This document shows, piece after piece, positions 3,370-23,941 of a stretch of 48,485 bases of DNA (its first letter is position 1; each line of letters starts with the position of its first letter). The DNA comes from a virus, in IMG/VR virus record IMGVR_UViG_3300028045_002377, positions 1-48,485 of that record. One strand, written 5' to 3'. Under the pieces are notes generated by a model. The model was given only the letters and a program-made list of their open reading frames with translations, ran no database searches and was not told the DNA's origin. Position numbers and translations under genes: made by a program.

Positions 3370-3398
3370 TTGACAAAAGCAAAGTATTTGTGTACAAT
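3370..3398 (+). promoter_or_regulatory. sigma70-type promoter upstream of the repeat leader
   Basis: TTGACA at 3370-3375 and TACAAT at 3393-3398 are separated by 17 bp. This matches the -35 consensus fully and the -10 at five of six bases. Transcription would start near 3405, at the first units of the G-free repeat array, so the repeats would form the 5' leader of the HTH-like gene at 3549. Confidence 0.75.
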
Positions 3399-3402
3399 GT
3401 AG

Positions 3403-3526
3403 TTACTAATCATACTAATCACTCTAATTACTCTAATCATACTAATACTTCAATCATACTAATCACTCTAATTACTCTAATTACTCTAATCATACTAATA
3501 CTTCAATCATACTAATCACTCTAATT
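3403..3526 (+). repeat. hierarchical 9-bp tandem repeat, G-free on the + strand
   Basis: Fourteen units are read as mostly 9 bp with a CTAAT-like core: (T/A)TACTAATC, ACTCTAATT, ACTCTAATC, ATACTAATA and the 8-bp CTTCAATC. They form a higher-order repeat. Copy one is 3412-3455 (44 bp), copy two is 3456-3508 (53 bp, with one extra ACTCTAATT), and a partial third copy is 3509-3526. From 3403 to 3532 the + strand has no G at all. The array lies directly downstream of a consensus promoter and ends about 20 bp before the next start codon, so it is most likely a transcribed, unstructured leader. A DNA-binding iteron array is the alternative. Confidence 0.9.
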
Positions 3527-3543
3527 ATATAAGATACGGACTC

Positions 3544-3551
3544 ATGTAATG
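3544..3551 (+). promoter_or_regulatory. start-stop mini-ORF overlapping a start codon (ATGTAATG)
   Basis: ATG at 3544-3546 is followed at once by TAA 3547-3549, whose last base is the A of the ATG that begins the HTH-like gene. The only purine-rich site nearby is GATACGGA (3533-3540), spaced for either ATG. A ribosome that initiates at the first ATG would stop immediately and sit on the real start. The element is seen in the sequence, but whether it acts is inference. Confidence 0.35.
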
Positions 3552-3935
3552 TCGTGGAAGAGAAAGAAGAACTATAATGGTAAAAATAAAAATTATAGTA
3601 TCACAAGTAAGCTTCGAAAAGAGCGAAAATCTAATGAAGAATTTGAAATGATGCTCAGCAATATTACTTTGGAAGAGGTGATAGCCCTTCGATTAGAGTT
3701 GGCCACTAGCTCCATCTCAAATAGGCTGTACGGCTTTCCCTTGTGGCATTCTATAAACGACATAGTTAAGGATGCAGTAGTCAAATATGCATTTTCAGCA
3801 ACAAGAACACAGTTTGAAGCAATGCGTTTTTTGGGACTCAAAGAGAACTCCTATCATGAACTAAAGAAAAAATATGATATTGAAAATTATTTTTCCAATA
3901 AACAAAATTTAGTTCTTGACGAAGAAGGGAAATAA
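3549..3935 (+). CDS. putative Fis/HTH_8-like DNA-binding protein
   Basis: The protein has 128 residues. The first 35 are very basic (many Lys, Arg and Asn), followed by helical segments. Residues about 75-115 (KDAVVKYAFSATRTQF, AMRFLGLKENSYHELKKKY) resemble the C-terminal helix-turn-helix of Fis/NtrC proteins, with the FLGL and LKKKY positions matching the LLGI-x-RxTL-xxKL pattern. The gene sits behind a consensus promoter and a 130-nt G-free leader, so a regulatory gene with unusual control fits. The start lacks a strong ribosome site. The HTH match is weak, and an unrelated helical protein remains possible. Confidence 0.55.
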   Translation: MSWKRKKNYNGKNKNYSITSKLRKERKSNEEFEMMLSNITLEEVIALRLELATSSISNRLYGFPLWHSINDIVKDAVVKYAFSATRTQFEAMRFLGLKENSYHELKKKYDIENYFSNKQNLVLDEEGK

Positions 3936-3950: not shown

Positions 3951-4179
3951 ATTGAGACTATAATATTGCTTGTTATATGGGGGGAGTTCGATATAAAGGT
4001 TTACGGTTCAATGTCTCTAACGAACCAGAAGAATAAAGGGGAGATACACATATGATTTCGTTTTTACTCGCAAAAAACTTCGAATTACAGGGAGGCTAGG
4101 ACGCTGGATATCCAAGGCAACCAGCATTCCTCCTATATAGCAAGTAATATTAAAACACAACAAAAAGAGCGACAAGTAC
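3951..4179 (+). promoter_or_regulatory. long leader with stem-loops, possible cis-regulatory RNA
   Basis: This stretch contains no long gene. It does hold several pairings. GAGAC (3954-3958) can pair with GTCTC (4013-4017). GGTTC (4005-4009) can pair with GAACC (4022-4026), or alternatively GTTCG (about 3986-3990) with CGAAC (4021-4025). There is also a two-part hairpin: GGAGG (4091-4095) with CCTCC (4129-4133), enclosing GCTGG (4103-4107) with CCAGC (4121-4125). A 15-codon ORF ends inside the last hairpin. Mutually exclusive pairings plus a leader ORF suggest regulation. I do not recognise a known riboswitch class. Confidence 0.4.
4052..4099 (+). CDS. 15-residue leader ORF
   Basis: ATG 4052 is preceded by AAAGGGGAG (about 4035-4043) at a good distance and encodes MISFLLAKNFELQGG before TAG. 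Its last codons and stop lie in the 5' arm of the GGAGG/CCTCC hairpin, so translation would open that hairpin. It is the only ORF in the leader with a convincing ribosome site. It may be a regulatory leader peptide or a chance ORF. Confidence 0.3.
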   Translation: MISFLLAKNFELQGG

Positions 4180-5134: not shown

Positions 5135-5569
5135 GTGAATGTTATCTTATTAGGAGTGGTGGGGTTCTTCACTACATCTTTGATGTTTTATCTCAATCAC
5201 AGGTTTGTTGGCCATGGCCCGCTTGGAAAATGGCCTGTGTTAAGGTATATAAAGAAGATGCACCTAATTCATCACAGAAACGATTATAACGAGAAAAGAA
5301 ACGATTACTTGTTTTTGCCACTTTGGGCAAAACTTTCATTCCTTTCGGTATTCGGATTATTTTCTCTGATATCTCTCCCTTTCGCTATTGGATACATTTC
5401 ATATGTGTTTTACTATGAGTGGATGCATCATAAGATCCATAATCACGACAAGAGTTCGAAATGTTATACACACCACTACATCCATCATAGAAAATCTATA
5501 AAACATAATTTTTCAGGAACAATGCCCTTTATTGATAAGCTCTTCGGTACTTCATTAAAAAGTGCTTGA
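5135..5569 (+). CDS. fatty acid hydroxylase/sterol desaturase-like membrane protein
   Basis: This 144-residue protein has a hydrophobic N-terminus (about 2-18) and central hydrophobic spans (about 64-95). It carries the histidine clusters that hold the di-iron centre in the fatty acid hydroxylase superfamily: HRFVGH near residue 22, HLIHH near 43, HHKIHNH near 98 and HHYIHH near 113. Such enzymes hydroxylate or desaturate membrane lipids, carotenoids or sterols. It is small but close in size to carotenoid-hydroxylase-type members. The start is GTG 5135 within the 10-mer GTGTATTGTG, which is shared with the gene at 9445. It may alter host membrane lipids during infection. Its substrate is unknown. 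Confidence 0.8.
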   Translation: MNVILLGVVGFFTTSLMFYLNHRFVGHGPLGKWPVLRYIKKMHLIHHRNDYNEKRNDYLFLPLWAKLSFLSVFGLFSLISLPFAIGYISYVFYYEWMHHKIHNHDKSSKCYTHHYIHHRKSIKHNFSGTMPFIDKLFGTSLKSA

Positions 5570-9754: not shown

Positions 9755-10456
9755 ATGACGAATGAGATATATAACCTGGATTATTTAAAAAAATCAAATA
9801 CCCAGGCACAAAAAGAACAAAAAGAGTACGATATAGGTGGCTCAATTCAGATATTCATAAAGGATAGATTTGAAAATAATATTGATGTTGGCGATGTTTT
9901 ATCTAAAATAAGTACCTCAATACCACCGCATTTGTTGCGAGAGGTTGACGTAATCTACATTGGAATGTTTGATGAATTCGTCAAAATGGACACTAATGCG
10001 ATGTATAAAGATGGTGCCATATACGTCAGCAATGAGCAGGAAGATGAGCAAGACTTAATCGATGATATTTGCCATGAAATAGCTCACTCATTGGAACCTC
10101 CTTATGGTCATATCCTATATGCAGACGGCGACCTAGAAAGAGAATTTATACAAAAAAGAAAAAGACTCTATGAAATATTAAAAAACGAAGGAGAGAGTCC
10201 ACCACAGGATCTATTTGATAATCCTGAATATAGCCTAGAAGTGGATAAATATTTGTATGAAGTAATAGGATATGACAGACTCAATTTAATATCTGCATCA
10301 TATGGACTATTCACTTCTGCATATTGCGCAACAGCCCTCAGAGAATATTTTGCTAATGGATTCGAATATTTCTTTTTGGATGATAAAGGATATTTGGGCG
10401 AGATTTGCCCCATACTATATAAAAAAATAAAGGAAATTTACGAAGATGATACATAG
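9755..10456 (+). CDS. HExxH zincin-like putative metallopeptidase
   Basis: This 233-residue protein contains C-H107-E-I-A-H111-S, the HExxH zinc-binding motif, in a helix after a short beta segment (GAIYVSNEQ). Further on, LREYFANGFEYFFLDD supplies E197 or E204 as a possible third ligand. That spacing and the (E)YFA-x-x-F-E context resemble gluzincins such as the anthrax lethal factor-type fold. There is no signal peptide, so it should act in the host cytoplasm or be packaged. The target is unknown. Weak similarity cannot be separated from other zincins without a structure search. The start has GAGGAA upstream, and the next gene overlaps its end. Confidence 0.7.
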   Translation: MTNEIYNLDYLKKSNTQAQKEQKEYDIGGSIQIFIKDRFENNIDVGDVLSKISTSIPPHLLREVDVIYIGMFDEFVKMDTNAMYKDGAIYVSNEQEDEQDLIDDICHEIAHSLEPPYGHILYADGDLEREFIQKRKRLYEILKNEGESPPQDLFDNPEYSLEVDKYLYEVIGYDRLNLISASYGLFTSAYCATALREYFANGFEYFFLDDKGYLGEICPILYKKIKEIYEDDT

Positions 10457-10841
10457 GGAAAATGTAGAAATAGATGGAAATAAAGTTAAGGTTACGGTGA
10501 AGCTTAGGAAGTATTGTAACCGAGACAACAAAAGAGTTATAACTTGCAATACTGCAGATGTCGAGCGAGCGCTGGCAGAAATGGGTATTCAAATTGGCAA
10601 GTGCCTTGAGTCCTCCGAATTGTCAAACCTGTATCCTCGCCACTCTTATGGGGTTTGGATTTTTGAACAGAAAGTTAAACGCAAGTCGACAAGAAAAAAG
10701 AGTTATTCTAAATCGAGTAAAACAAATGTAGAAAATGTAGAAAATGTAGAAAATGTAGAAAAAAACCTTGACAAATCTGATAAACATGTTATAATAATAG
10801 AGAAAGATAAACTAGATAACCTTCTATCCGAAGAGGGATAA
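10446..10841 (+). CDS. small basic protein with NVE tandem repeats
   Basis: The protein has 131 residues. The N-terminal 75 form a compact mixed alpha/beta region (KVKVTVKLRKYC, ADVERALAEMGI), followed by a Lys/Ser-rich linker and four perfect Asn-Val-Glu triplets encoded by a 9-bp DNA repeat. It ends with a helical acidic tail (EKDKLDNLLSEEG). ATG 10446 lies within the end of the metallopeptidase gene. The stop is directly adjacent to the next ATG, and a promoter lies inside its 3' end. No function can be assigned. Confidence 0.6.
   Translation: MIHRENVEIDGNKVKVTVKLRKYCNRDNKRVITCNTADVERALAEMGIQIGKCLESSELSNLYPRHSYGVWIFEQKVKRKSTRKKSYSKSSKTNVENVENVENVEKNLDKSDKHVIIIEKDKLDNLLSEEG
10725..10760 (+). 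repeat. 9-bp tandem repeat, four copies
   Basis: Four exact head-to-tail copies of AATGTAGAA encode Asn-Val-Glu four times within the linker of the gene at 10446. The array ends eight bases before the -35 of the embedded promoter at 10768. Exact identity suggests recent slippage and likely copy-number variation. Confidence 0.9.
10768..10795 (+). promoter_or_regulatory. sigma70-type promoter inside a coding sequence
   Basis: TTGACA (10768-10773) and TATAAT (10790-10795) both match the consensus exactly, with a 16-bp spacer. The site lies in the last 75 bases of the NVE-repeat gene and would drive the nuclease and glycosyltransferase genes that begin at 10842. Confidence 0.7.
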
Positions 10842-11611: not shown

Positions 11612-12871
11612 ATGTCAGAAAAGAAAAAAATATTAGTTATAAGTGATCACCCGCTCGCCCCTTCTGGGGTTGGCACCCAAACTAAGTACATCATAGAAGC
11701 TCTCCTAAACACCGGAAGGTACAGATTCCTTTGTTTAGGGGGAGCCGTAAAGCATACCGACTACACCGTGTCCAGGGTTGATCCATGGGGCCCAGATTGG
11801 GTCATCGCTCCGGTCAATGGATATGGGAACCCCGAGACAGTAAGGTCCTTAATTCATCAAGAGAAGCCAGATCTGTTATGGTTTATGACTGATCCAAGAT
11901 TCTATGGTTGGCTGTGGGATATGGAAAACGAAATACGCTGCAATGTTCCTATGGTATATTATCATGTATGGGATAATTATCCGTACCCAACATATAATAA
12001 GAAGTTTTATGACTCTACAGATGTTATAGCATCTATATCGAAGGTGACTAATGACATCGTCAACAACGTTGCTCCCGATGTGGAGAATCATTATATACCG
12101 CATGCTGTCGACGTTCAATCTTTTCACCCCTTTCCAGATGACGCCATCGAGGCAATAAAAAAACAGCACTTCGGAGAAAATGATTCAAAGGTGACGTTTT
12201 TCTGGAACAATAGGAACGCTAGGAGAAAGATGAGTGGCTCTCTACTCTTTTGGTTCAATGAATTCGCTGAAGAGGTAGGCCCAGATAAAGTAAGATTAAT
12301 AATGCATACCAATCCGAAAGATCAGCATGGTCAGGACCTAGAAGCGATAATCAAATCTCTAGATGCTGATGACGGTCGAATCATGTTATCGACAAATAAG
12401 GTCTCTCAAAAGGACCTTGGCGCATTTTATAATATTGCAGATTGTACAATTAACATTTCAGACGCAGAGGGTTTCGGGCTATCCACCTTGGAATCGCTAT
12501 CCTGTGGTACGCCGATTATTGTTAATATGACAGGTGGGCTCCAGGAACAAGTGACGAATGGAGAAGAGTGGTTTGGAATTGGTATCGAGCCATCCTCGAA
12601 GGCTATAATCGGATCGCAGACTGTTCCATTTATCTATGAGGATAGAGTCTCGAAAGAAGATTTTATCTCTTCACTAAAAAAGATGTTTCAGATGACGAAA
12701 GAAGAGAGGAAGCACCTGGGTTTGAAGGGAAGAAATCATGTGATTGAGAACTATAATTTTTCTGATTTCAAGAAGCGCTGGATAGACCTGATCGACTCAG
12801 TTGTGGAAAGTAGGGGCTCTTGGGGCACGAGAAAAGGATATCAATCTTGGGAAATGAAGGAGATAAAATGA
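11612..12871 (+). CDS. GT4-type glycosyltransferase
   Basis: This 419-residue protein has a two-Rossmann (GT-B) layout. The N-terminal ISDHPLAPSGVGTQT is the usual glycine-rich acceptor-side loop. The C-terminal half contains ISDAEGFGLSTLESLSCGTP, the E-x7-E nucleotide-sugar motif of family GT4 retaining transferases. ATG 11612 follows the nuclease stop by eight bases, and its own stop overlaps the next ATG. It probably transfers a hexose from a nucleotide sugar in a glycan assembled in the cytoplasm. Donor and acceptor are unknown. Confidence 0.88.
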   Translation: MSEKKKILVISDHPLAPSGVGTQTKYIIEALLNTGRYRFLCLGGAVKHTDYTVSRVDPWGPDWVIAPVNGYGNPETVRSLIHQEKPDLLWFMTDPRFYGWLWDMENEIRCNVPMVYYHVWDNYPYPTYNKKFYDSTDVIASISKVTNDIVNNVAPDVENHYIPHAVDVQSFHPFPDDAIEAIKKQHFGENDSKVTFFWNNRNARRKMSGSLLFWFNEFAEEVGPDKVRLIMHTNPKDQHGQDLEAIIKSLDADDGRIMLSTNKVSQKDLGAFYNIADCTINISDAEGFGLSTLESLSCGTPIIVNMTGGLQEQVTNGEEWFGIGIEPSSKAIIGSQTVPFIYEDRVSKEDFISSLKKMFQMTKEERKHLGLKGRNHVIENYNFSDFKKRWIDLIDSVVESRGSWGTRKGYQSWEMKEIK

Positions 12872-14136
12872 AGCAAAAAATAATATTACGAGGCCCAATC
12901 TTGTCTCAGTCTGGATATGGAGAGCAAGCAAGATTTGCTTTAAGGTCATTGAGATCTCGCGAAGATATTTTTGATATCTATCTTATTCCGATTGCTTGGG
13001 GAAAGACTGGCTGGGTTAGTCTCGATAACGAAGAACGCCGCTGGATAGACAGTATCATAACTAAAACAAACGTATTTTTGAAGAATCAGGGAACTTTTGA
13101 TATATCTCTACAGGTGACTATACCTAACGAGTGGGAAAAGATGGCTCCAATTAACATTGGATATACTGCTGGCATTGAAACGACAAAAGTAGCTGCAGTG
13201 TGGCTTCAGAAAGCCAACGAAATGGATAAGATCATTGTCGTATCAAATCACGCAAAAGACGTGTTCGAAAAGACGGTTTACCAGGGCACTAACAAGAACA
13301 CTGGTGAGTCAATGACATTACATTGTAGAACACCAGTCAGCGTCGTGAGCTATCCGGTGCGCCACTTTGATAAAGAAAAATTAAGCCTCAAGTTAGATTA
13401 TGACTTCAACTACCTCGCAATCTCTCAGTGGGGCGCAAGAAAGAACTTAGATAACTTGATCAAATGGTTTGTGGAAGAGAACTTCGATCAAGAAGTCGGT
13501 CTTGTGCTGAAAATTTCAACCAAAAATAACTCCTTGATGGATAGGAGAGTGACGGAGAGGCGACTAAGGACTGTACTAAAAGATCATAAAGACAGGAAAT
13601 GCAAAGTTTATCTTCTCCATGGCGATTTATCCGAAGGCCAGATGACTTCTCTATATCAGAATTCAAAGATTAAGAGTTTGATATCCACCACTCACGGCGA
13701 AGGATACGGCCTCCCACTATTCGAAGCGGCATATAATGGAATTCCAGTTGTTGTTCCTGGCTGGTCTGGTCATACTGATTTTCTATACATACCAGATCAG
13801 AAAAGAGAAGGAAAGAAAAAGCCCATGTTTGCGTCTGTAAACTACGAGTTGAAAGAGGTTCAAAAGCATGCAGTCTGGAAAGGGGTGATAGAACCTGATT
13901 CTAAGTGGTGCTATCCGGAGGAAGCTAGTTTTAAGCGCCGCTTGCGTGAGGTCAGAACAGAATATTCTCGATTTAAGAGAAACGCGACAAAGTTAAAGAA
14001 GCACATTATTGAGAATTTCACGGAAGAAAGGATGTATGATGACTTTGTCACTGCGATTCCTGGCATCGACTCATCCCCGTTTGACGCAAAATCTTGGTTT
14101 GACGAACTGAATCTGGACATCAAAGAGGTAAAATGA
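12868..14136 (+). CDS. GT4-type glycosyltransferase
   Basis: The protein has 422 residues from ATG 12868, chosen because GAAGGAG lies just upstream and the ATGA overlap with the previous stop is typical of this cassette. It starts with LRGPILSQSGYGEQA, another glycine-rich loop, and the C-terminal domain contains HGEGYGLPLFEAAYNGIP with the E-x7-E pattern of GT4. It differs clearly from the neighbouring transferase, so it is not a recent duplication. A long charged stretch (about 360-395) may be a membrane-surface helix. It likely adds a second sugar in the same glycan. Confidence 0.85.
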   Translation: MKQKIILRGPILSQSGYGEQARFALRSLRSREDIFDIYLIPIAWGKTGWVSLDNEERRWIDSIITKTNVFLKNQGTFDISLQVTIPNEWEKMAPINIGYTAGIETTKVAAVWLQKANEMDKIIVVSNHAKDVFEKTVYQGTNKNTGESMTLHCRTPVSVVSYPVRHFDKEKLSLKLDYDFNYLAISQWGARKNLDNLIKWFVEENFDQEVGLVLKISTKNNSLMDRRVTERRLRTVLKDHKDRKCKVYLLHGDLSEGQMTSLYQNSKIKSLISTTHGEGYGLPLFEAAYNGIPVVVPGWSGHTDFLYIPDQKREGKKKPMFASVNYELKEVQKHAVWKGVIEPDSKWCYPEEASFKRRLREVRTEYSRFKRNATKLKKHIIENFTEERMYDDFVTAIPGIDSSPFDAKSWFDELNLDIKEVK

Positions 14137-14972
14137 GTTTCGTATTTGTAGCAGACTTTTTTGCAGATGAAATATTGGGGGGAGGCGAGCTAAATAACGA
14201 AGAATTAGTTTCCCTTATTTCCGTAAAATCCTCTATCACCAAAATAAAGAGCGCTGCAATCACTTTGGACTTCTTGCGAGAAAACGGAGAAAAATATTTC
14301 ATCATATCCAATTTTGTTGGCCTAAAAGAGGAATGTAAGGCACGACTATCAGAAATGAAATATGTGATTTACGAACACGATCATAAGTATGTGAGGTCAA
14401 GAAATCCTGCAATGTATGAAGATTATTTGGCTCCGAAATCGGAAATCATAAATTACGAATTTTATAAGAATGCCTCCGCTGTATTCTGCCAATCAGCTTT
14501 TCATGCTGAAATAGCCAGGAAAAATCTAGATTTAGATAATATAGTAAATCTAGGTGGAAATCTGTGGTCCGAAGAGTCACTGAATAAAATGTTGGAATAT
14601 TCGAAAAAAACAAAAGAAAATAAATGCTCAATCATGGCATCGAATATAGAGCATAAGAATACCCGTGAAGCAGTTCAATATTGCGAATACAAACAAATTC
14701 CCTATGAGCTTATTAATAGTTCCTCATATTATGATTTCTTGGATAAATTAAGCAACAATCTTAAATTAATATTTCTACCAAAAACCCCAGAAACACTATC
14801 AAGAATAGTGGTAGAAGCAAGAATGATGAATATGGGAGTAGCAACAAACTCTAGAGTCGGCGCATCAAGCGAGCCCTGGTTCGAAAAGAAGGGTGAAGAA
14901 CTGATCAATATTATGAGATTGAAGCGACAAGAAATCTTAGAAAAAGTATTGGCGGCATTTGAAAATGAGTAA
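14133..14972 (+). CDS. probable GT-B glycosyltransferase-like protein
   Basis: This 279-residue protein overlaps the previous stop by ATGA. The N-terminus (FVFVADFFADEILGGGELNN) contains a glycine-rich loop like that of GT-B enzymes. A YEHDHKYVRSRNP segment follows, and the C-terminal half has PETLSRIVVEARMMNMGV, which resembles the donor-site ExxE helix. It is shorter than usual (typical GT-B proteins have 350-400 residues), so it may be a reduced transferase. The assignment rests on these two weak motifs and the neighbourhood. Confidence 0.65.
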   Translation: MSFVFVADFFADEILGGGELNNEELVSLISVKSSITKIKSAAITLDFLRENGEKYFIISNFVGLKEECKARLSEMKYVIYEHDHKYVRSRNPAMYEDYLAPKSEIINYEFYKNASAVFCQSAFHAEIARKNLDLDNIVNLGGNLWSEESLNKMLEYSKKTKENKCSIMASNIEHKNTREAVQYCEYKQIPYELINSSSYYDFLDKLSNNLKLIFLPKTPETLSRIVVEARMMNMGVATNSRVGASSEPWFEKKGEELINIMRLKRQEILEKVLAAFENE

Positions 14973-16500
14973 CCATTTTAAAATTATTATTCCATTATAT
15001 AACGTGGAAGAGTGGATAAAGATTTGTCTGAGATCTGTAAAGGCTCAGACCTATCAGGATTACCAGTGTATCATAGTTGATGATATTTCTACAGATGGTA
15101 GTGCCGACGTTATAAAGAAAGAAATTGCGTCAGACGACCGCTTTCTGCTCGTTGAAAATAAAGAAAAGAAGTATGCCCTAAGAAATATTTACGAAGCCAT
15201 AGAGCTATCAAATCCGGCCAAAGAAGACATAATTGTCACCTTAGATGGTGATGATTGGCTGGCTAGCCGAGACGTGCTGTCAACATTGAATGAAGTTTAT
15301 TCTAAGAACGATTGTTGGATTACTTATGGCAGCTATGCAGAATATCCTTCCGGAAGAAGAGGCAAATTTTCAAAACAAATCCCACAGCATATCATAAGTG
15401 AATCTTCTTATCGGAGAAATCCGTGGAGCGCCTCACATTTGAGGACTTTCAAATACAAGCTTTGGAGTAAAATAGAAAGAGAAGATCTTTTAGATTCTGA
15501 TGGAAATTTTTATGAAATGGCTTGGGATCTGTCTTTTATGTTTCCTATGTTAGAGATGGCCGGCCCCAGAAGTCTCTATGTGCAAGATATTCTTTACAGT
15601 TATAATCTATCGAACCCGCTAAACGACCACAAAAAAGATCACTCCAAGCAACTTAGACTCGAATCAGAAATAAGAGGAAAAAATAAATATGATAAAATTG
15701 AGATAATATATTGTTATTTAAAGGGCGGTTTAGGAAATATGATGTTTCAAATAGCGGCAGCAATAAACTTGGCTATAGAGAATAACATGACACCTTCTTT
15801 TCCGAATTTATATAAACATTTGGAATATTTAGATGATGATAAAATTTATAATAATAGCCTTAATCATGCTGGTGAATATCTGAAAATTTTTGAGAGTTTG
15901 GACGTCACTCAACCCCTCGGGAAAGAGGCGATCATTAGTTATCCATTTTATTATGAAAAACCCAAGCTACAAAAAGATAGCAGGATTATCGAAGGATTTT
16001 TTCAGAGCGAAAAATATTTCTCCAAACATTCCGAAGAAATAAAAAAAATGCTAAAAATTCCACCTTCCGTTTATCAAGAAATAAGAAAAAAATACTCTAA
16101 TTTACTAGACCATAATACAACATCAATACATGTAAGAAGGGGGGATTATTTAGATTTTCCTGATCATCATACTGTATTGGGTACGGACTATTATGAGAAA
16201 GCTATACAAATTCTCCCAAAATCTGATTTTTATTTGGTATTTAGCGATGATATTCCGTGGTGTAAGGAAAATTTTAAGGGAGAAAAATTTGTTTTTATTG
16301 AAAATGAAAGGGACTATGTTGAGTTATATTTAATGTCCCTTTGTAGCAATAATATTATTGCAAATTCTTCATTTTCTTGGTGGGGAGCCTGGCTTAATCC
16401 CAATAACGATAAGAAGGTGGTGGCCCCAAATAAGTGGTTTGGTTCAAAAATAGGAGAAAAAATCGAGGATATAATACCAAATACATGGATAAAGATATGA
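14965..16500 (+). CDS. GT2 glycosyltransferase fused to GT11 fucosyltransferase
   Basis: The protein has 511 residues from ATG 14965 (an upstream in-frame TTG is less likely). Domain one (about 1-235) is a GT-A family 2 enzyme: IIIPLYNVEEW at the start, VDDISTDGS, and the metal-binding D94-G-D96-D97. Domain two (about 245-511) is a GT11 alpha-1,2-fucosyltransferase: G254-GLGNMMFQ, H389-VRRGD394 and NSSFSWWGAWLN. The join falls exactly where a free GT11 protein would begin, so two genes have fused cleanly. The second half is more A/T-rich than the first. It probably adds one sugar and then caps it with fucose from GDP-fucose. Confidence 0.9.
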   Translation: MSNHFKIIIPLYNVEEWIKICLRSVKAQTYQDYQCIIVDDISTDGSADVIKKEIASDDRFLLVENKEKKYALRNIYEAIELSNPAKEDIIVTLDGDDWLASRDVLSTLNEVYSKNDCWITYGSYAEYPSGRRGKFSKQIPQHIISESSYRRNPWSASHLRTFKYKLWSKIEREDLLDSDGNFYEMAWDLSFMFPMLEMAGPRSLYVQDILYSYNLSNPLNDHKKDHSKQLRLESEIRGKNKYDKIEIIYCYLKGGLGNMMFQIAAAINLAIENNMTPSFPNLYKHLEYLDDDKIYNNSLNHAGEYLKIFESLDVTQPLGKEAIISYPFYYEKPKLQKDSRIIEGFFQSEKYFSKHSEEIKKMLKIPPSVYQEIRKKYSNLLDHNTTSIHVRRGDYLDFPDHHTVLGTDYYEKAIQILPKSDFYLVFSDDIPWCKENFKGEKFVFIENERDYVELYLMSLCSNNIIANSSFSWWGAWLNPNNDKKVVAPNKWFGSKIGEKIEDIIPNTWIKI

Positions 16501-17342
16501 AAAAACAAAAAATAAATCTTATCGGAGGAGGATTTAGACATTCCCTGAGCACTGATCCTTTCTCTTCCCCAAATATGATAGAGTGGGTTTTGGATAAGTC
16601 AGCCGATATTTCCATACATGTTGATGGCGGACTATACTATGAGGTTGATAATAGAAAAGAAAATTACGGATGGCTAGCAGAAAGTTCAGCAATTATACCA
16701 GGAATAATCAGGAATGTTTTTAATAATTTGAGTGTATATAAATCACGATTTAAATACATTTTTACACAAGATAGAAGACTCGTGGAGCTAGATCCGTCTT
16801 TCATAAAATTTTCGTCTCCACATATGGTGCCATGGATTCAAAATTGGAGTATCTATAATAAGACAAAATTGATATCTTTCATAGGGTCAAATAAGACAAT
16901 GTGTCCAGGTCACAAGCTTAGGCAAAAAAAGATTAAAGAATTATATAAAAAAGTGGATCATTTTGGCAGGGGATTCGGAAATAGGGAACTTCCTTGGGAG
17001 ATAGAGGTGAACTCCAGGAAGGAGTCTGGTAAAATTTTGGGATTAAAAGATTATATGTTCTCTATTGCCATGGAGAATGATAATTACGATGAGGTTATAT
17101 CACAAAAGGTTACTGATTGTATAGCTACTGGCACCATCCCTATTTATTGGGGATCGAGAAACATAACAAATTATTTTGACAAGAGGGGGATTGTTTTTTT
17201 AGAAGACTTATGTAACATTGAGCACTTAACAGAAGAGCTATATTTCTCAAAAATGGAATTTGTGGAAAAAAATCTAAGATTATTGGACAACCTATTATTA
17301 TCTGAAGATTGTATTTATTTAAAATATTTGCAGGGAAAATAA
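16497..17342 (+). CDS. GT10-type alpha-1,3/4-fucosyltransferase
   Basis: ATG 16497 overlaps the previous stop (ATGA), giving 281 residues. An in-frame ATG at 16485 is an alternative. Residues about 187-220 (FSIAMENDNYDEV, then QKVTDCIATGTIPIYWG) match the conserved C-terminal donor site of GT10 fucosyltransferases, including the E-N near 193 and the final P-x-Y-x-G. The N-terminal part (SFIGSNKTMCPGHKLRQK) fits the acceptor domain. It is slightly short for the family. It is the second GDP-fucose-using enzyme in the cassette. The region is strikingly A/T-rich. Confidence 0.85.
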   Translation: MKKQKINLIGGGFRHSLSTDPFSSPNMIEWVLDKSADISIHVDGGLYYEVDNRKENYGWLAESSAIIPGIIRNVFNNLSVYKSRFKYIFTQDRRLVELDPSFIKFSSPHMVPWIQNWSIYNKTKLISFIGSNKTMCPGHKLRQKKIKELYKKVDHFGRGFGNRELPWEIEVNSRKESGKILGLKDYMFSIAMENDNYDEVISQKVTDCIATGTIPIYWGSRNITNYFDKRGIVFLEDLCNIEHLTEELYFSKMEFVEKNLRLLDNLLLSEDCIYLKYLQGK

Positions 17343-17786
17343 ATGAAAAAAATATATTCTAGAATAGTGCCAGATATGCTTCTGCATGTGGTTATGAAAT
17401 TAGAAGAAGAAATATCCACCCAAAAAGAATGTAGAATAGACATTATCCCAGAAGATAACTTTATACAATGCTCTCTCTTAAAGATGGAGAACAAGAAGAC
17501 ATTTCCACCCCACAAACACATAAAAAAAGATAGACATTATCCTGAACAAATAGCACAAGAAAGTTGGGTCGTTATTAGAGGTAGGGTGAGGTGTAAATTT
17601 TATGATTTAGATGACTCTATCATCGCCGAGCCAATTTTGAAAGCTGGAGATGCTAGTTTTACTTTGTATGGTGGCCATACTTATGAAATTCTAGAAGACA
17701 ATACGGTAGTTTATGAATATAAAACAGGCCCATATGAGGGGCAAAAATTAGATAAAGAATTTCTCACACCAAGAGGCAATGATTAG
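17343..17786 (+). CDS. cupin-fold protein (WbuC-like)
   Basis: This 147-residue protein starts one base after the previous stop. It has a beta-rich middle with FPPHKHIKKDR (metal-binding histidines), an E-S-W-V-V-I-R-G-R-V segment and a second motif GDASFTLYGGHTYEI, which together make the two cupin motifs. Small cupins like this (WbuC type) are common in O-antigen and capsule clusters and may bind or isomerise a nucleotide sugar. Neighbouring fucosyltransferases and methyltransferases support a sugar-modification role, but the reaction cannot be read from sequence. Confidence 0.7.
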   Translation: MKKIYSRIVPDMLLHVVMKLEEEISTQKECRIDIIPEDNFIQCSLLKMENKKTFPPHKHIKKDRHYPEQIAQESWVVIRGRVRCKFYDLDDSIIAEPILKAGDASFTLYGGHTYEILEDNTVVYEYKTGPYEGQKLDKEFLTPRGND

Positions 17787-17789
17787 TTC

Positions 17790-18401
17790 ATGCTGAATAA
17801 AGAAAGTATTAAAAAATGGTTTGCCGATAATGGAGATGCTACTCATAATTTAAATCATAATTTAAATAAAGATTCGATTGTATTGGATATTGGTGGATAT
17901 ACTGGTGTGTGGGCATCTCAAATTTTGGAAAAGTATGATTGTCAAATCTATATTTTAGAACCGGTGCCTGATTTTTATGAAAAACTAAAACAAAGATTCA
18001 TGAAATGTCCAGGGGTTTTGTCCAAGATGGTGGGAGTTTCTCCAGATGTAGATAAGGAACTCACCATTAACCTAGACGGTGATGCGACACTTTGCTTAGA
18101 TGATTCACCTTTTGGCACCACTACAATTCATTTGTCTCCGATTGAAAAAATATTAGAAGATTTCAATATAGAGGAGGTGGATCTAGTGCAAATCAATATA
18201 GAGGGCGCCGAATACGCAGTCTTAAAAGAGTGGCTTAGGAGTGGCACAATAAATAGATTTAAAAAGCTACAGATTCAATTTCATCAAGTGGCAGGAATCG
18301 ATTATCTTTCTGAGAGAAGCTATATTCAGAATAAGTTGGCAGAAATTGGATACATTAAAGTTTTTGATTATCCTTTTGTTTGGGAGTCTTGGGAGAAATG
18401 A
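17790..18401 (+). CDS. FkbM-family methyltransferase
   Basis: This 203-residue protein has a SAM-binding start VLDIGGYTGVWA (about 31-42), an acidic residue after the second strand (ILEP), and the FkbM hallmark INIEGAEYAVL near residue 135. FkbM enzymes O-methylate sugars or polyketides, and in phage and surface-polysaccharide clusters they usually methylate a sugar hydroxyl. It starts three bases after the cupin stop and overlaps the next gene by ATGA. Methyl capping of the glycan is the likely job. Confidence 0.85.
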   Translation: MLNKESIKKWFADNGDATHNLNHNLNKDSIVLDIGGYTGVWASQILEKYDCQIYILEPVPDFYEKLKQRFMKCPGVLSKMVGVSPDVDKELTINLDGDATLCLDDSPFGTTTIHLSPIEKILEDFNIEEVDLVQINIEGAEYAVLKEWLRSGTINRFKKLQIQFHQVAGIDYLSERSYIQNKLAEIGYIKVFDYPFVWESWEK

Positions 18402-18943
18402 AAGAAGTTAAAATAAATATGGGATGTGGGTGGAGAAACTTTGGTAAAGATTGGATTCATATAGACGGATCAGACTATGATCATTTAGATTATAGAGATA
18501 TATGCAAATTAGAATTTGATAATGATGTTGTTGATTTAATTTACGCCTCTCATGTTATTGAGTACTTTGATAGAGAAGAGGTAAATAATCTGCTATCGGA
18601 ATGGAGAAGGGTTTTGAGACCTGGGGGTAAATTAAGAATTGCAGTTCCAAATTTTCAAGAAATAGCCTCTATATATTTAAAGGGGGAGTATAATTTGGAG
18701 AATTTTTTAGGGCCCCTTTATGGAAAGATGAAAATGGAGAATGATTTCATATATCACAAGACTTGTTATGATTTTGAAAATTTGAAAAAAATATTGACAA
18801 ATGCAGGATTTCGTGATATCATAATGTATGATTGGAGAAAGACCGATCACTCTAATTTTGATGACCACTCGCAGGCTTATATTCCCCACATGGATAAGGA
18901 AAACGGAACTTTAATAAGTTTGAATGTAGAGTGTAAAAAATGA
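18398..18943 (+). CDS. class I SAM-dependent methyltransferase
   Basis: The protein has 181 residues from ATG 18398, inside the ATGA overlap. Motifs are INMGCGWRNFGKDWIHIDGS (a glycine-rich SAM loop, then an acidic residue), IYASHVIEYF and WRRVLRPGGKLRIAVPNF (post-motif I and motif II). This type is common in surface-glycan clusters and probably methylates a sugar or lipid-linked intermediate. It differs from the neighbouring FkbM enzyme, so the two likely methylate different positions or substrates. Confidence 0.82.
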   Translation: MKEVKINMGCGWRNFGKDWIHIDGSDYDHLDYRDICKLEFDNDVVDLIYASHVIEYFDREEVNNLLSEWRRVLRPGGKLRIAVPNFQEIASIYLKGEYNLENFLGPLYGKMKMENDFIYHKTCYDFENLKKILTNAGFRDIIMYDWRKTDHSNFDDHSQAYIPHMDKENGTLISLNVECKK

Positions 18944-19686
18944 ATGTTCGCGTCAATTTGCAAAATGTCCAGCCCGGCATAATGGGCAAAATGGTGCTAG
19001 CTATCCAGACAGTCGCCGCCGCTCATCACCGCGGCGAGATCGATATAGATAAAATTACTAACTTGAATTTTTGCTGTGAAAGTCAGACTGATAAAGATTA
19101 TTTTAATTATGTACTTGATCAAAGAGATGTTACAACATTTGATAAAATATATAAATGGCAGGTTTATCCGCAGCTTGCTGACATATCATCCCATAATGAT
19201 TTCCCTCTTTATAAAAAAATAGCTGAAAAAATAAACATTAAAAAGCAAATTTTTGAAAATATTCCCAAAGAAATTGATGAAGACACTGTGGGAGTTCACA
19301 TAAGATTGACTGATATGAACTCTCTTCATTCTAGGGATTATGGATGCAAAACTCTTGATGATTATTTGGAAAAGTTAGATGAAGTTATAGCAAAAAATAA
19401 TATAAAAAAAGTTTTTATAGCCAGCGATAACTTAGAATCTATATCAAAAATAAAGTCAAAATACGACATTATTGTAAATAACATAACAACCAGAAATAAG
19501 TTAGAAGTTGACTCTGGTTATAATAATTTTTTAAGAAAAAATCACAATGATTTTGATCTTTGGCACTCAACTTTTGTAGATTCTATGTCTTTATCGCGAT
19601 GCGGATTTATAATAAAGGGTGTTAGTAGTTTTAGTAATATTTCCATCATTTTTTCCTCTACTATAAAACGAGTATATACTGTATGA
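18940..19686 (+). CDS. GT23/NodZ-like fucosyltransferase
   Basis: This 248-residue protein has V-G-V-H120-I-R122-L-T-D125, the H-x-R-x-x-D of alpha-1,6 and O-fucosyltransferases, then VFIASDN and a C-terminal DSMSLSRCGFIIKGVSSFSN, the donor-binding end of NodZ/GT23-type enzymes. The fold binds GDP-fucose without a metal. It is short for the family and its N-terminal region is less clear, so another GT-B inverting transferase is possible. If right, it is the third GDP-fucose enzyme in 5 kb. Its ATG lies in the previous stop, and its own stop overlaps the next start. Confidence 0.72.
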   Translation: MNVRVNLQNVQPGIMGKMVLAIQTVAAAHHRGEIDIDKITNLNFCCESQTDKDYFNYVLDQRDVTTFDKIYKWQVYPQLADISSHNDFPLYKKIAEKINIKKQIFENIPKEIDEDTVGVHIRLTDMNSLHSRDYGCKTLDDYLEKLDEVIAKNNIKKVFIASDNLESISKIKSKYDIIVNNITTRNKLEVDSGYNNFLRKNHNDFDLWHSTFVDSMSLSRCGFIIKGVSSFSNISIIFSSTIKRVYTV

Positions 19687-20834
19687 TAACTGGTAATGAT
19701 GTTTTTATTGATAAAAACGTCAACATTAAAAGAAAAGAGATGGTTATTTTGGGAGATCATATAGCCATAGATTACGGCTTTCATTGTACTACTGGGTTAT
19801 CTTTGGGTAACTATATTCACATCGGCCCTCACGTATCTTGCATTGGGGGCCCCAATGGAAGGTTTATCGCCAAGGGCTTTAATAATATTATGGCTGGAGC
19901 TAGAATTATTTGTGGTTCTGATAGATTCGATGATAGTGGCCTTTTTGGCGCACTTATACCAAAAGAGCTTCAAGGTAGGCAGGTTATTGAGCCCATCATT
20001 ATGGAAGAGTTCTCAAATGTTGGGACAAATGCAATAATAATGCCGGGCACTAGATTAAGAAAGGGAGTTTTAGTAACTGCGGGAAGCTTGTTGATGGGAG
20101 ACACAGAAGAGTGGGGCGTATATAAGGGAAATCCGGCAAAACTTATAAAAAAAATTGATGGCTCTAAAATCTTAGAAAACGCTGCCAAAATGGGATATGG
20201 GGACTTTCACTTAGACGGTTGTTTTTGTGATCCATCGAAAAAATTTACTTTCATACATATATTTAAAAATGCTTCAATATCAATTAGAGATTCTCTTGAC
20301 ATGAGAAAGAATTACTATAGCTGGGATACCGCAAAGCACTTTAAAGATAGCGAAACAATTTGCGTGATCAGGAACCCTATAGAGAGATTTATATCTGCCT
20401 ATCAGTATTTATTAAGGCTGGATGACGGAGATTTCCCCAATAGACACCCCACAGAAATAACACAAGCATCAGATTTTTACAGAGAAAGAAATAATCCAAT
20501 AGAAAGTTTTCTTTTATTTATAAATTTTATAGAAAATGAAGGATTTTACGATGCCGTCACAGTCCCTCAGACCACCTTTCTTCGTGAAAGAGCTTTACTA
20601 ATTGACGATATTGATAATGTCTTTATTCAAGAAAACCTAACAAATGAGTATGATATTTTTAAAAATAAGTACGACATAAAAGCCCGTTTGCCAAAAAATA
20701 ACGCAGGAAACGGAGAAACAACCAAGCTCTTGATCGATCTTATTAATTCTGATGAGAACTTAAAAGAAAGAATTAGTAAATTGTATAAAAGCGATATGGA
20801 ACTGTATCGGAAACTAACACAGGATAAAAAATGA
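19683..20834 (+). CDS. left-handed beta-helix acyltransferase fused to a sulfotransferase
   Basis: The protein has 383 residues. Residues about 1-165 show hexapeptide repeats (VFIDKNVNIK, VGTNAIIMPGTRLRKGVLVTAG, GNPAKLI), the left-handed beta-helix of sugar O-acetyltransferases. Residues about 185-383 match the carbohydrate sulfotransferase family: FIHIFK195NASIS (PAPS 5'-phosphosulfate site) and CVIR230NPIERF (3'-phosphate site). Together they would acetylate and sulfate a glycan. Sulfotransferases need PAPS, which the host must supply. The fusion is unusual. It overlaps both neighbours and is followed by an SGNH hydrolase. Confidence 0.83.
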   Translation: MITGNDVFIDKNVNIKRKEMVILGDHIAIDYGFHCTTGLSLGNYIHIGPHVSCIGGPNGRFIAKGFNNIMAGARIICGSDRFDDSGLFGALIPKELQGRQVIEPIIMEEFSNVGTNAIIMPGTRLRKGVLVTAGSLLMGDTEEWGVYKGNPAKLIKKIDGSKILENAAKMGYGDFHLDGCFCDPSKKFTFIHIFKNASISIRDSLDMRKNYYSWDTAKHFKDSETICVIRNPIERFISAYQYLLRLDDGDFPNRHPTEITQASDFYRERNNPIESFLLFINFIENEGFYDAVTVPQTTFLRERALLIDDIDNVFIQENLTNEYDIFKNKYDIKARLPKNNAGNGETTKLLIDLINSDENLKERISKLYKSDMELYRKLTQDKK

Positions 20835-21460
20835 TATTACATACCTTTGGAGATAGCCATGCCTCACATATTCATGGAGGGTGGAATAACGAAAAAATGA
20901 ATTTGCCAGTGCAAATTATTTCAAATCATCTTGGTCCCAAGCTAATGCACAGCTTTGGGAGAGATAAAAATTATTTATTTTCCCACAACACTGTTTCAGA
21001 AGGTGATATTGTAGTATTTTGCTTTGGTGAGATTGATTGTCGCTGTCACGTAGGGAAATATTCTCCGAACTGGAAACCAGTCATTGATACATTGGTGGAA
21101 AATTATTTTGAAGCCATAAGGATAAATGCCGAGCAGTACAAAGATTTGACCATCACGGTCTACAATGTGGTTCCCCAAATAGAAAGAGAGAGTCCAAAAA
21201 ATGCTTGGATGATCCCTTACCAGGCAAATGCTCCACATGTAGGGGCTGATTCTGAAAGAGCGGAATACACCAGATATATGAATAAAAGATTGGCATCTAA
21301 ATGCGAAGAGAGTGGATATATTTTTATTGATGTATACGATAAATATTGTGACGAAAACGGCTTCCTTCGGGAAGAGTTGAGCGATAAAAATTGTCACATT
21401 TCTGATCCAAAATATGTATCAGAATTTATTATTTCTAATTTGTGGGGAGCGGAGGGATAA
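20831..21460 (+). CDS. SGNH/GDSL-type hydrolase
   Basis: This 209-residue protein begins TFG-D8-S9-H10, the block I nucleophile serine. It has C-F-G66-E-I-D69 in place of block III, and D185-K-N-C-H189 near the end, which supplies the Asp and His, one residue wider than the classic DxxH. Such enzymes remove or add acyl groups on carbohydrates. Next to an acetyltransferase-sulfotransferase fusion it may tune O-acetylation of the glycan. No signal peptide is seen, so it acts in the cytoplasm. The start overlaps the previous stop by ATGA. Confidence 0.78.
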   Translation: MILHTFGDSHASHIHGGWNNEKMNLPVQIISNHLGPKLMHSFGRDKNYLFSHNTVSEGDIVVFCFGEIDCRCHVGKYSPNWKPVIDTLVENYFEAIRINAEQYKDLTITVYNVVPQIERESPKNAWMIPYQANAPHVGADSERAEYTRYMNKRLASKCEESGYIFIDVYDKYCDENGFLREELSDKNCHISDPKYVSEFIISNLWGAEG

Positions 21461-21462
21461 AA

Positions 21463-22062
21463 ATGAGCTTTAAAATGATAACAGAATTTGAAAATAGGCT
21501 AGCTGATTTTTTTGGCTCTCCGCACGCTGTTGCAGTTGATTGTTGTACGCATGGCGTAGAACTGTGTTTAAGACACACAAACGCTCAAAAAATTGTAGTG
21601 CCAAAACGAACCTATCTTTCTATTCCCTTTCTGGCGGAAAAGCTTAATATAGAGCGAGAGTGGAAAGATGAAGATTGGAAAGATTATTATTATTTGACGC
21701 ATAATGTTATAGATGCCGCGGTGTTGTGGAAAAGAGACAGCTATATCCCAGGAACTTTTATGAATATTAGCTTTCAGTTCAAAAAACACTTGACATTGGG
21801 TCGCGGAGGTGTTATACTATGTGATAGTAGTGAGGATGCACAAGAATTGAAAAAACTAACGTATGATGGGCGAACCCCCGATACTCCATGGAGAAATCAA
21901 AATATATCGTCAATAGGATATCACTACTACATGACACCAGAAACAGCAGCTATGGGATTACAAAAATTGCCCACCGCCATTGCTACACCCCCCAAGCAAT
22001 GGCTTGTAGGGGATTGGCCAGATTTAACAGAAATGGACGTTTTTAAAAACCAGAAGGTATAA
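21463..22062 (+). CDS. half-length DegT/DnrJ/EryC1 aminotransferase
   Basis: ATG 21463 has GGAGGG upstream, giving 199 residues, about half the usual 370-400. Recognisable pieces are EFENRLADFFGSPHAVAVDCCTHGVEL (a PLP phosphate-binding region), KRTYLSIPFL, and S103-F-Q-F-K-K108-HLTLGRGG, in which K108 aligns with the PLP lysine. The small C-terminal domain that normally completes the active site is missing. It could be a degenerate gene, or a compact enzyme acting as a dimer on a 4-keto sugar such as that made by Gmd, giving perosamine. The frame is intact. A candidate promoter lies inside it. Confidence 0.72.
   Translation: MSFKMITEFENRLADFFGSPHAVAVDCCTHGVELCLRHTNAQKIVVPKRTYLSIPFLAEKLNIEREWKDEDWKDYYYLTHNVIDAAVLWKRDSYIPGTFMNISFQFKKHLTLGRGGVILCDSSEDAQELKKLTYDGRTPDTPWRNQNISSIGYHYYMTPETAAMGLQKLPTAIATPPKQWLVGDWPDLTEMDVFKNQKV
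21790..21818 (+). promoter_or_regulatory. candidate internal promoter upstream of gmd
   Basis: TTGACA (21790-21795) and TATACT (21813-21818) are 17 bp apart. The match is nearly perfect but lies in a coding region, where chance matches occur. It would start a transcript about 285 nt before the gmd start, allowing separate expression of the sugar-nucleotide enzymes. Confidence 0.4.
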
Positions 22063-22108
22063 ATTCTTACTTTCAAACAAAATAGATAACAACTTAGGAG
22101 AATGAGTA

Positions 22109-23077
22109 ATGACAAAAAAAGCTTTGATAACAGGAATCGGAGGACAGGATGGGAGCTATTTATCCGAACATCTAATTGAACAAGGATACGAAGTGTATGG
22201 AATAGTTCGAAGACATTCCGTTGCAGAAAATCAAAATTCCCGAATTATACACATCAACAAAAATGTAAAAACATTTTATGGAGACTTGCTGGATTATCCG
22301 TCTCTTTTTAGGATCATTTCCGAAGTTAAACCAGATGAGATCTATAATTTGGGGGCCATGAGTCACGTAAGAATTAGTTTTGATGTTCCCTCTTTTACTA
22401 TCCAGACTAACGCTCTTGGTGTATTGAACATGTTGGAGATTTACAAAACTATTGTCCCAGAAGCCAAATTTTATCAGGCAAGCTCATCAGAGATGTTTGG
22501 TAATTCAGTAGATGAAGATGGCTTTCAGAGACTTACTACTCCAATGAATCCAGTAAGTCCTTATGGGTGCTCTAAGGTTCTGGGCTATAATTTAGTACGG
22601 CATTATCGACACGCATATGGCCTCCATGCCTGCAATGGCATCCTCTTTAACCATGAATCCCCCAGGCGTGGAACTAATTTCGTAACAAACAAGGTGGTTA
22701 AAACCGCAGTAGAAATTAGCAAAGGAATAAAAGATAAGCTCGAACTTGGAAATATGGACTCCTATAGGGATTGGGGCCATTCTAAAGATTATACCAGAGC
22801 TATGATGAAGATTATTAATCACGATGTTCCAGAAGATTTTATTGTTGCCACTGGGGAAACTCACTCCGTCAGGGATCTTTGTGATGTTGTTTTTACCAAG
22901 TTGGAGATGAATTATCAAGATTATGTAGTTCAAAATCCAATATATATGCGACCAGAGGAACTTAAATACTTAAAAGGTGATTCTGAAAGGACAAGAGAGA
23001 CTCTGGGGTGGGAGCCCGAATATACATTCGAAACCATGCTGGAGGAGATGATAGAAAGATGGCAACGAGAACTTTAA
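22109..23077 (+). CDS. gmd: GDP-mannose 4,6-dehydratase
   Basis: This 322-residue extended SDR enzyme starts at ATG 22109 with AGGAG at the right distance. It has the NADP-binding TGIGGQDGSYL at residues 8-18, S125-S-S-E128-MFG, the catalytic Y152-GCSK156, and NHESPRRGTNFVTNK, a signature specific to Gmd. It converts GDP-mannose to GDP-4-keto-6-deoxymannose, the precursor of GDP-fucose, GDP-rhamnose and GDP-perosamine. This links it to the upstream fucosyltransferases and the DegT aminotransferase. A GDP-fucose synthase (Fcl/WcaG) is not obvious in the window, so that step may come from the host or from the next gene. Confidence 0.94.
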   Translation: MTKKALITGIGGQDGSYLSEHLIEQGYEVYGIVRRHSVAENQNSRIIHINKNVKTFYGDLLDYPSLFRIISEVKPDEIYNLGAMSHVRISFDVPSFTIQTNALGVLNMLEIYKTIVPEAKFYQASSSEMFGNSVDEDGFQRLTTPMNPVSPYGCSKVLGYNLVRHYRHAYGLHACNGILFNHESPRRGTNFVTNKVVKTAVEISKGIKDKLELGNMDSYRDWGHSKDYTRAMMKIINHDVPEDFIVATGETHSVRDLCDVVFTKLEMNYQDYVVQNPIYMRPEELKYLKGDSERTRETLGWEPEYTFETMLEEMIERWQREL

Positions 23078-23113
23078 GGAGTTCAGCAACAGTGTCCACG
23101 CTCCAGAGAAACA

Positions 23114-23941
23114 ATGAGTAAGATTTTAGTTACGGGACATCGAGGATATATTGGTTCTCACGTCTATGCAGAATTATCTGATATGGGACATGATGTTTTT
23201 GGAATAGATTTGAAAGAAGGGAACGATTTATCACACTGCCTTCCAAGTGAAGAATTTGATTATGTTTTCCATCTCGCTGCTCTCCCAAGAGTTGAATATT
23301 CAGTCGAGAATCCATATTATACTGCAAAACAAAACGTTTTGGCTACTTCGAAGATACTAGAATGGTCTAAAAATCATGGCGTGAAAGCAGTTATTTTTTC
23401 ATCATCATCGGCAGTTTATGGAGAAGGTGACGGCCCAAAATCTCCGTATGGATTACACAAATTAATGTCAGAAATGGAGTGTGATTTATATTCTGAACTA
23501 TATGGGCTGAAGTGCGTGTGTCTTCGCTATTTCAATGCTTATTCAGAAGATCAGGAATATGGAGGATCTTATTCTACTGTTGTCGCTGCTTGGATGCAAA
23601 TGATAAGGGATGGAAAATCACTTAGAATTGATGGTGACGGAGAGCAAAGCCGCGATTTCATACATGTATCAGATATAGTTAGTGCCAATATATGGTGTAT
23701 GGAAAACATAGAAAAAATAGATAAGCTATGGTATGATGTCGGATACGGCGAGACGTGTAGCCTAAACGATATAAAAAAGATAGTAGATGAGTTCAACGAC
23801 GTAGAATGGACAAAAGCACCAGAAAGAAGCGGAGACGTGAAGCACACAAAGATCGGAGACCAAAGACTCCAAGCTACGGGCTGGAGTCCGCAGATCTCAA
23901 TTGACGATGGATTGAGTATGTGTTTTAAAAATTTAAAATAA
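23114..23941 (+). CDS. NAD-dependent epimerase/dehydratase (extended SDR)
   Basis: This 275-residue protein has a Rossmann start (TGHRGYIGSH, about 8-17), SSSSAVYG with the catalytic serine, and Y112-GLHK116. It also contains RYFNAYSED and DGDGEQSRDFIHVSDIV, typical of UDP-glucose 4-epimerase and CDP/dTDP-sugar epimerase relatives. It is shorter than most (about 310-340). It does not show the signatures of GDP-fucose synthase but could reduce or epimerise the Gmd product. The start lacks a clear ribosome site. It is the last gene of the glycan block, followed by a strong promoter. Confidence 0.85.
   Translation: MSKILVTGHRGYIGSHVYAELSDMGHDVFGIDLKEGNDLSHCLPSEEFDYVFHLAALPRVEYSVENPYYTAKQNVLATSKILEWSKNHGVKAVIFSSSSAVYGEGDGPKSPYGLHKLMSEMECDLYSELYGLKCVCLRYFNAYSEDQEYGGSYSTVVAAWMQMIRDGKSLRIDGDGEQSRDFIHVSDIVSANIWCMENIEKIDKLWYDVGYGETCSLNDIKKIVDEFNDVEWTKAPERSGDVKHTKIGDQRLQATGWSPQISIDDGLSMCFKNLK

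Follow-up and report, generated by a model that had tools for sequence, protein, structure and literature searches.

A G-free tandem array of nine-base units fills the predicted 5′ untranslated leader of a small Fis-like gene starting at position 3549 of the phage DNA analysed here (the window, meaning the whole stretch of 48,485 nucleotides), and an equivalent array occupies the same site in eight other IMG/VR phages. The position of the array, the absence of predicted structure and a degree of conservation beyond lack of structure favour an element that acts as RNA, which we consider probable. That the array leader constitutes a repressor operator coated by a single-strand-binding protein is put forward, by analogy with a known phage operator, as a tentative reading with rather less than even prospects.

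The nine-base array and its unit

On the + strand, positions 3403 to 3532 contain 51 A, 49 T, 30 C and, as the first-pass annotation had stated, not a single G, and a base count over the window sets this stretch of 130 nt against a runner-up of 40 nt among the G-free runs. At a G content of 21.4%, the chance of a G-free run of 130 nt is approximately 3e-14 per given start and approximately 1e-9 over the whole window. The stretch accommodates, at 3404 to 3527 (+ strand), an array of approximately 14 nine-base units of the consensus CTAAWCAYW with a local 53-bp higher-order duplication. Tandem Repeats Finder reports a period of 9 with 13.6 copies (3406 to 3525) and a period of 53 with 2.3 copies and 95% matches (3404 to 3527), and analysis of repeat families gives unit spacings of 9, 9 and 35 (= 44 and 53). 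The unit had initially been described by a CTAAT core, of which the nine-base repetition stands, but CTAAWCAYW is the better fit with base 5 being A or T over all arrays; equally, the 44/53-bp higher-order repeat is present in the window phage but represents a local duplication outside the conserved feature.

Tiling of eight arrays, from which the consensus was derived, delivers 80 units with T2 in 79, A3 in 76, C1 and A4 in 74 each, A7 in 73 and C6 in 65 of them, counts that are non-independent as repeats copy one another. The core bases C1, T2, A3, A4 and A7 are kept in 91-99% of the 80 units. A or T occupies positions 5 and 9, a pyrimidine (C or T) position 8, and departures from the consensus rarely lead to G. 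Altogether, G accounts for 8 of 927 nt over the eight arrays and for 3 of 207 nt between units, where G-poverty is moderate evidence only for selection against G because the inter-unit stretches may descend from units. The number and order of units vary between phages; unit sequence and G-poverty persist. Judged from these counts, the conserved core of the unit is more specific than mere lack of structure requires.

As positions 5 and 9 bar C as well as G, recognition of duplex DNA would fit the unit too. A phage or host protein might bind the 9-bp units as duplex, with the array serving as an operator, an organising site or a set of replication iterons and its location in the leader merely reflecting the space between promoter and gene. 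Strict tandem units in a single orientation speak for such an array, as does the A/T-only degeneracy at positions 5 and 9, which resembles minor-groove reading. There are also precedents, as ParR and omega of pSM19035 bind direct-repeat DNA arrays which, like the array described here, consist of tandem short direct repeats beside the promoter of a small regulator. In contrast to these systems, however, all repeats lie in the predicted transcript and none over the promoter; the array remains downstream of approximately +1 in 9/9 phages and never crosses the promoter. Furthermore, deviating bases avoid G, the inter-unit stretches (though possibly unit-derived) are G-poor, and the array is missing from relatives that carry the same gene. 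A repeat search recovered no inverted repeats inside the window array, and none are present that would suit a Fis-type dimer. As canonical Fis-type dimer binding needs inverted sites, the earlier suggestion that the array serves the product of the gene encoded next becomes unlikely in its canonical form. On balance, a function as duplex DNA appears unlikely.

Among RNA operators, those of the TRAP type likewise consist of short elements, approximately a dozen in number, that recur at regular intervals along an untranslated leader. TRAP elements are approximately 11 GAG/UAG triplets with a spacing of approximately 5 that need G, whereas the present array has a spacing of 9 and is without G, which sets it apart from a TRAP-type operator. 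An array of boxA elements (NusB/S10) was rejected: the unit keeps CUAA..CA, and the CUCUU that is part of the boxA consensus used for comparison is unconserved.

Position, folding and descent of the leader

A promoter can be read directly at 3370 to 3398 (+ strand), composed of TTGACA (3370 to 3375), a 17-nt spacer and TACAAT (3393 to 3398), with the start of transcription placed at approximately 3405; promoter and +1 are predictions from sequence. The first unit of the window array falls at +2 of this predicted start, in agreement with the proposal of the first-pass annotation that the array begins near the start of transcription and belongs to the leader, and the array stops 19 bases short of the ATG at 3549. 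In 8/8 phages having upstream DNA the array is preceded by a TTGACA box at 17-nt spacing, L015 being left out as its −35 box lies off the contig. In 9/9 phages the array fills the predicted 5′ untranslated region, with the first unit at −1 to +19, the end of the array 13-29 nt upstream of the start codon and a predicted leader length of 93-144 nt.

Because G is absent, the leader is unable to pair stably. The predicted minimum free energy (MFE) of the window leader amounts to −0.3 kcal/mol versus −29.6 kcal/mol for random phage segments, which bears out the initial view of an unstructured RNA made of A, C and U. Over the nine phages the leader values range from 0.0 to −2.2 kcal/mol versus means of −17 to −30 kcal/mol for random phage DNA of the same length, with 0 of 200 random segments per leader being as weakly folded.

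Lack of structure is equally a property of Rho-utilisation (rut) sites, for which RhoTermPredict considers a 78-nt unstructured and ribosome-free stretch with more C than G and with regularly spaced C (PMC6407284). The array leader resembles such sites in being long, predicted to be unstructured, untranslated and richer in C than in G with C at regular spacing, and 9/9 leaders contain a stretch of 78 nt in which C occurs 18-24 times and G 0-2 times. Rho would load on the leader and end transcription upstream of or within the Fis-like gene if neither ribosomes nor anti-termination intervene, whereby a strong promoter would be held back until conditions change. Among the places listed for the window and for a 193-kb relative (G001), the array is the only one on the sense strand where 78 nt hold 18 C or more and no more than 4 G; the other listed rut-like places are antisense. 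On the other hand, the C content of the leader is only 23-31%, YC dinucleotides are sparse in some arrays, with L015 and L102 having 6 per 78 nt, C recurs with a spacing of 9 instead of the expected 11-13 and the best conserved positions are U2 and A3, not C at position 6. A rut site is considered the next best of the RNA models after the single-strand-binding operator, but an improbable one. As the array is the sole sense-strand rut-like stretch among the places listed in G001, Rho control of a phage gene would be directly testable at this site.

The equivalents of the array were detected among relatives of the 3549 protein gathered from IMG/VR (seven phages) and by a scan with the unit pattern (one phage); these are L012 (= L002), L013, L014, L015, L016, L017, L029 and L102/L177. 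The first-pass annotation had pointed to related phages as the place where such arrays should recur, and there they are present at the same locus with a conserved downstream gene, so that the refuting condition it had set, absence from close relatives, did not hold. The 3549 proteins of these phages share 64-84% identity with that of the window and the array phages are therefore not near copies. A further scan for close relatives yielded zero array phages beyond the nine, the remaining loci of the gene family showed no array and a 25-base exact array pattern was without match in IMG/VR. In the protein tree a branch with SH-aLRT 86 separates the nine array phages from the other family members, and a single gain thus explains the distribution; on the gene tree, array presence amounts to one change, with 0 of 500 shuffles as low. 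The nine arrays are of one origin and their common features are thus not nine independent observations. Per contig, the array is confined to a single locus in the seven contigs scanned, which dismisses a genome-wide motif, and in G001 it represents the longest G-free run (131, with 44 for the next).

A neutral slippage-prone repeat (minisatellite) could be kept by descent alone, and the turnover in unit number and order between phages agrees with such an origin. Equally, similar 9-nt repeats exist in unrelated bacterial genomes, where the unit was searched for and its 43 matches, inconsistent in orientation to genes, were set aside as mostly chance or simple repeats. Nevertheless, site, unit and G-poverty are the same in nine phages despite the divergence of their proteins, and array loss inside the clade was not seen in any of the nine, which makes neutrality very unlikely.

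Similar layouts were noticed elsewhere. In an Omnitrophota MAG contig (JAHIYJ010000103.1; L140:460-568), TTGACA-17-TATACT is succeeded by a G-free leader with approximately four CTAAWCATA units and then by GGAG and a small AbrB-like ORF with its ATG, this being the single array match in that genome. A viral contig apparently unrelated to the array phages (IMGVR_UViG_3300025018_000850; L104:10270-10450) has a TTGACA box and a Shine-Dalgarno-ATG start with four CACACTAAA units in between. Within the gene family, L058 (5900-5995) combines a TTGACA promoter with a short leader that has two ACTAA elements (TACTAAGTTCTACTAACTC) and possibly the look of a young array.

The Fis-like gene and its surroundings

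The gene at 3549 to 3935 (+ strand) encodes a small protein of 128 amino acids, predicted by an AF2 model, Foldseek and profiles to be helical with a C-terminal helix-turn-helix (HTH) of Fis type. The AF2 model, built from 55 relatives, has a pLDDT of 84, and most of the 36 Foldseek matches in the PDB are Fis chains (E of at least 1, probability up to 0.75, TM-scores on the query of approximately 0.3-0.4), while hmmsearch gave E values of 0.47 for the NtrC DNA-binding domain and 0.75 for Fis. The product had zero Pfam or PHROG matches and no relative among INPHARED phages. The HTH-like product recognised from the first pass can therewith be described as a protein that resembles Fis, Fis-like rather than Fis, with a predicted HTH and a likeness that is weak but consistent. 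A basic N-terminal arm, for which the first nine proteins hinted at a connection with the array, is common without array among 80 relatives and was discarded as a correlate.

Between the array and the start codon, a spacer (3528 to 3548, + strand) harbours a weak Shine-Dalgarno sequence, with a pairing energy of −3.2 kcal/mol, and an ATG-TAA at 3544. Approximately 11% of 199 long ORFs of the window and G001 have a best site weaker than or equal to that of the 3549 gene (median −6.3 kcal/mol, with the best start taken, which favours the ORFs). In the array phages pairing is weak in 8/8 tested (+1.8 to −4.2 kcal/mol). It is weak as well in many array-less relatives (median −1.6), and the weak site is thus a trait of the gene family and not something that came with the array. 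Of the other TTGACA-17 promoters of G001 (TATAAT type), most reach a start with a Shine-Dalgarno sequence such as AGGAGG within approximately 25 nt.

A weak start site beside a predicted unstructured leader is the setting in which ribosomal protein S1 and the 30S subunit could dock on the leader and slide to the start, a standby or enhancer function in line with the literature on S1 and standby sites. Standby/S1 leaders and the omega leader of TMV are unstructured, almost G-free and repeated sequences upstream of a start codon as is the array, although the array is of phage origin, much longer and unrelated in unit sequence. G-free RNA also makes AUG, GUG and UUG impossible. The same property excludes a leader peptide from the array, and the sole listed + strand ORF of at least 40 amino acids across it begins upstream of the predicted +1. 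A standby site, however, would work without a fixed 9-nt unit, an equally weak Shine-Dalgarno sequence is found in many relatives that have no leader array, and the start region is not predicted to be more accessible behind the array leader than behind random leaders. Complementarity to rRNA is not unusual either, as pairing with E. coli 16S or 23S rRNA does not exceed that of shuffled leaders and was abandoned as an explanation. A ribosome standby function is accordingly judged quite unlikely.

Just after the Fis-like gene, a conserved non-coding segment (4001 to 4139, + strand) is present in 9/9 array phages, with counterparts at L012:6450-6584, L013:6425-6558, L014:6418-6531, L015:527-666, L016:6417-6527, L017:2995-3111, L029:5283-5436 and L177:2435-2589. 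The predicted RNA comprises a hairpin GGTTC..GAACC, whose loop CTCT pairs with a GAG-type stretch further downstream, together with a small pseudoknot of GGA/TCC with GCTGG/CCAGC; these four helices, of which two cross the others, were proposed by eye from the alignment. Standard pairs occupy 100% of 153 cells versus 33-49% in slid controls, which lean toward the proposed structure because it was fitted to the same alignment, and 7 of 17 pairs display compensatory two-sided changes, with no shuffle as high. A covariance model of the segment also matches the array-less L052, L056 and L080 in the corresponding position behind the gene (E 2e-7 to 5e-6). The segment found no match in Rfam and represents a candidate new RNA family.

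The window is called T4-related because it encodes PhoH, a gp55-like late sigma factor and exonuclease families together with three tRNAs; when the first 20 kb of its DNA were compared with INPHARED, only a tRNA gene matched among the records listed. Approximately 12 kb (11612 to 23941) are taken up by genes judged from their translations to be sugar-related, with glycosyltransferase-like, fucosyltransferase-like, GDP-mannose dehydratase-like and NAD epimerase-like proteins. A fatty acid hydroxylase family protein (PF04116; 49.9 bits versus a cut-off of 31), unusual for a phage, is encoded at 5135 to 5569. Two further repeats of the window are coding: a 15-bp tandem repeat (CAGGCGGAAGAGGCG) with 6.7 copies at 30103 to 30203 gives rise to a Gly-Arg-Gly-Ala stretch inside a protein of 1815 amino acids (28116 to 33563), and 4.3 copies of AAATGTAGA at 10724 to 10762 encode (ENV)n within an ORF that spans 10446 to 10841.

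A possible single-strand RNA operator

In the preferred reading, the strong sigma70-type promoter would yield an mRNA with the array as its whole 5′ leader, in which approximately 12-14 A/C/U units (CUAAWCAYW) stay single-stranded from approximately +1 to approximately 20 nt before the start codon. A single-strand-binding protein would coat the repeats cooperatively until its end masks the weak site at which ribosomes enter the Fis-like gene, and translation of the Fis-like regulator would thereby track the amount of free binder. The most natural candidate for the binder would be the phage's own single-strand-binding protein of the gp32 type.

This operator is ranked first among the RNA models because of the precedent of T4 gene 32 and of the gp32 homologues found in the two longest array contigs. 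T4 gp32 represses its own mRNA via an unstructured leader, for which UUAAA/UAAA repeats are essential (PMC535899). The gene 32 operators of T4 and RB69 and the array leader have in common a T4-type phage, an unstructured leader and short UAA-containing repeats beside the ribosome site, and in the array phages, too, the unstructured segment reaches the ribosome site (MFE approximately 0 in 9/9, with the array ending 13-29 nt before the start). In contrast to the T4 operator, however, the array precedes a Fis-like gene and not the gene of a single-strand-binding protein, has a strict 9-nt period in a much longer leader with a weak Shine-Dalgarno sequence, and starts at approximately +1 with no predicted structure, thus without the upstream pseudoknot that serves as nucleation element, an element that RB49 may also lack (PMC535899). 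The parallel is one of working and not of membership.

What counts against the single-strand-binding operator is the gp32 gene itself, which in G001 possesses a longer yet ordinary leader with a Shine-Dalgarno sequence and without array; gp32, if the binder, would consequently act on another gene. Furthermore, gp32 is largely sequence-independent in binding and is not known to recognise a specific sequence, so that binding of gp32 would leave the conserved unit unexplained. With respect to other candidate binders, a phage cold-shock protein (PF00313) was found in none of the eight records searched, and RegA (PF01818) gave no match in a search that was silent on its control too and is therefore not evidence of absence.

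A dedicated, sequence-specific binder of single-stranded RNA would turn the array into a new class of RNA operator, in which approximately a dozen near-identical units fill the 5′ untranslated region and regulation needs the leader to be unfolded, a proposition that we hold to be rather doubtful. Control by phage leaders is mostly understood via folded RNAs. A conserved leader that does not fold and carries counted repeats would provide a simple regulatory part open to engineering and would reveal in what way T4-related phages regulate a Fis-like gene.
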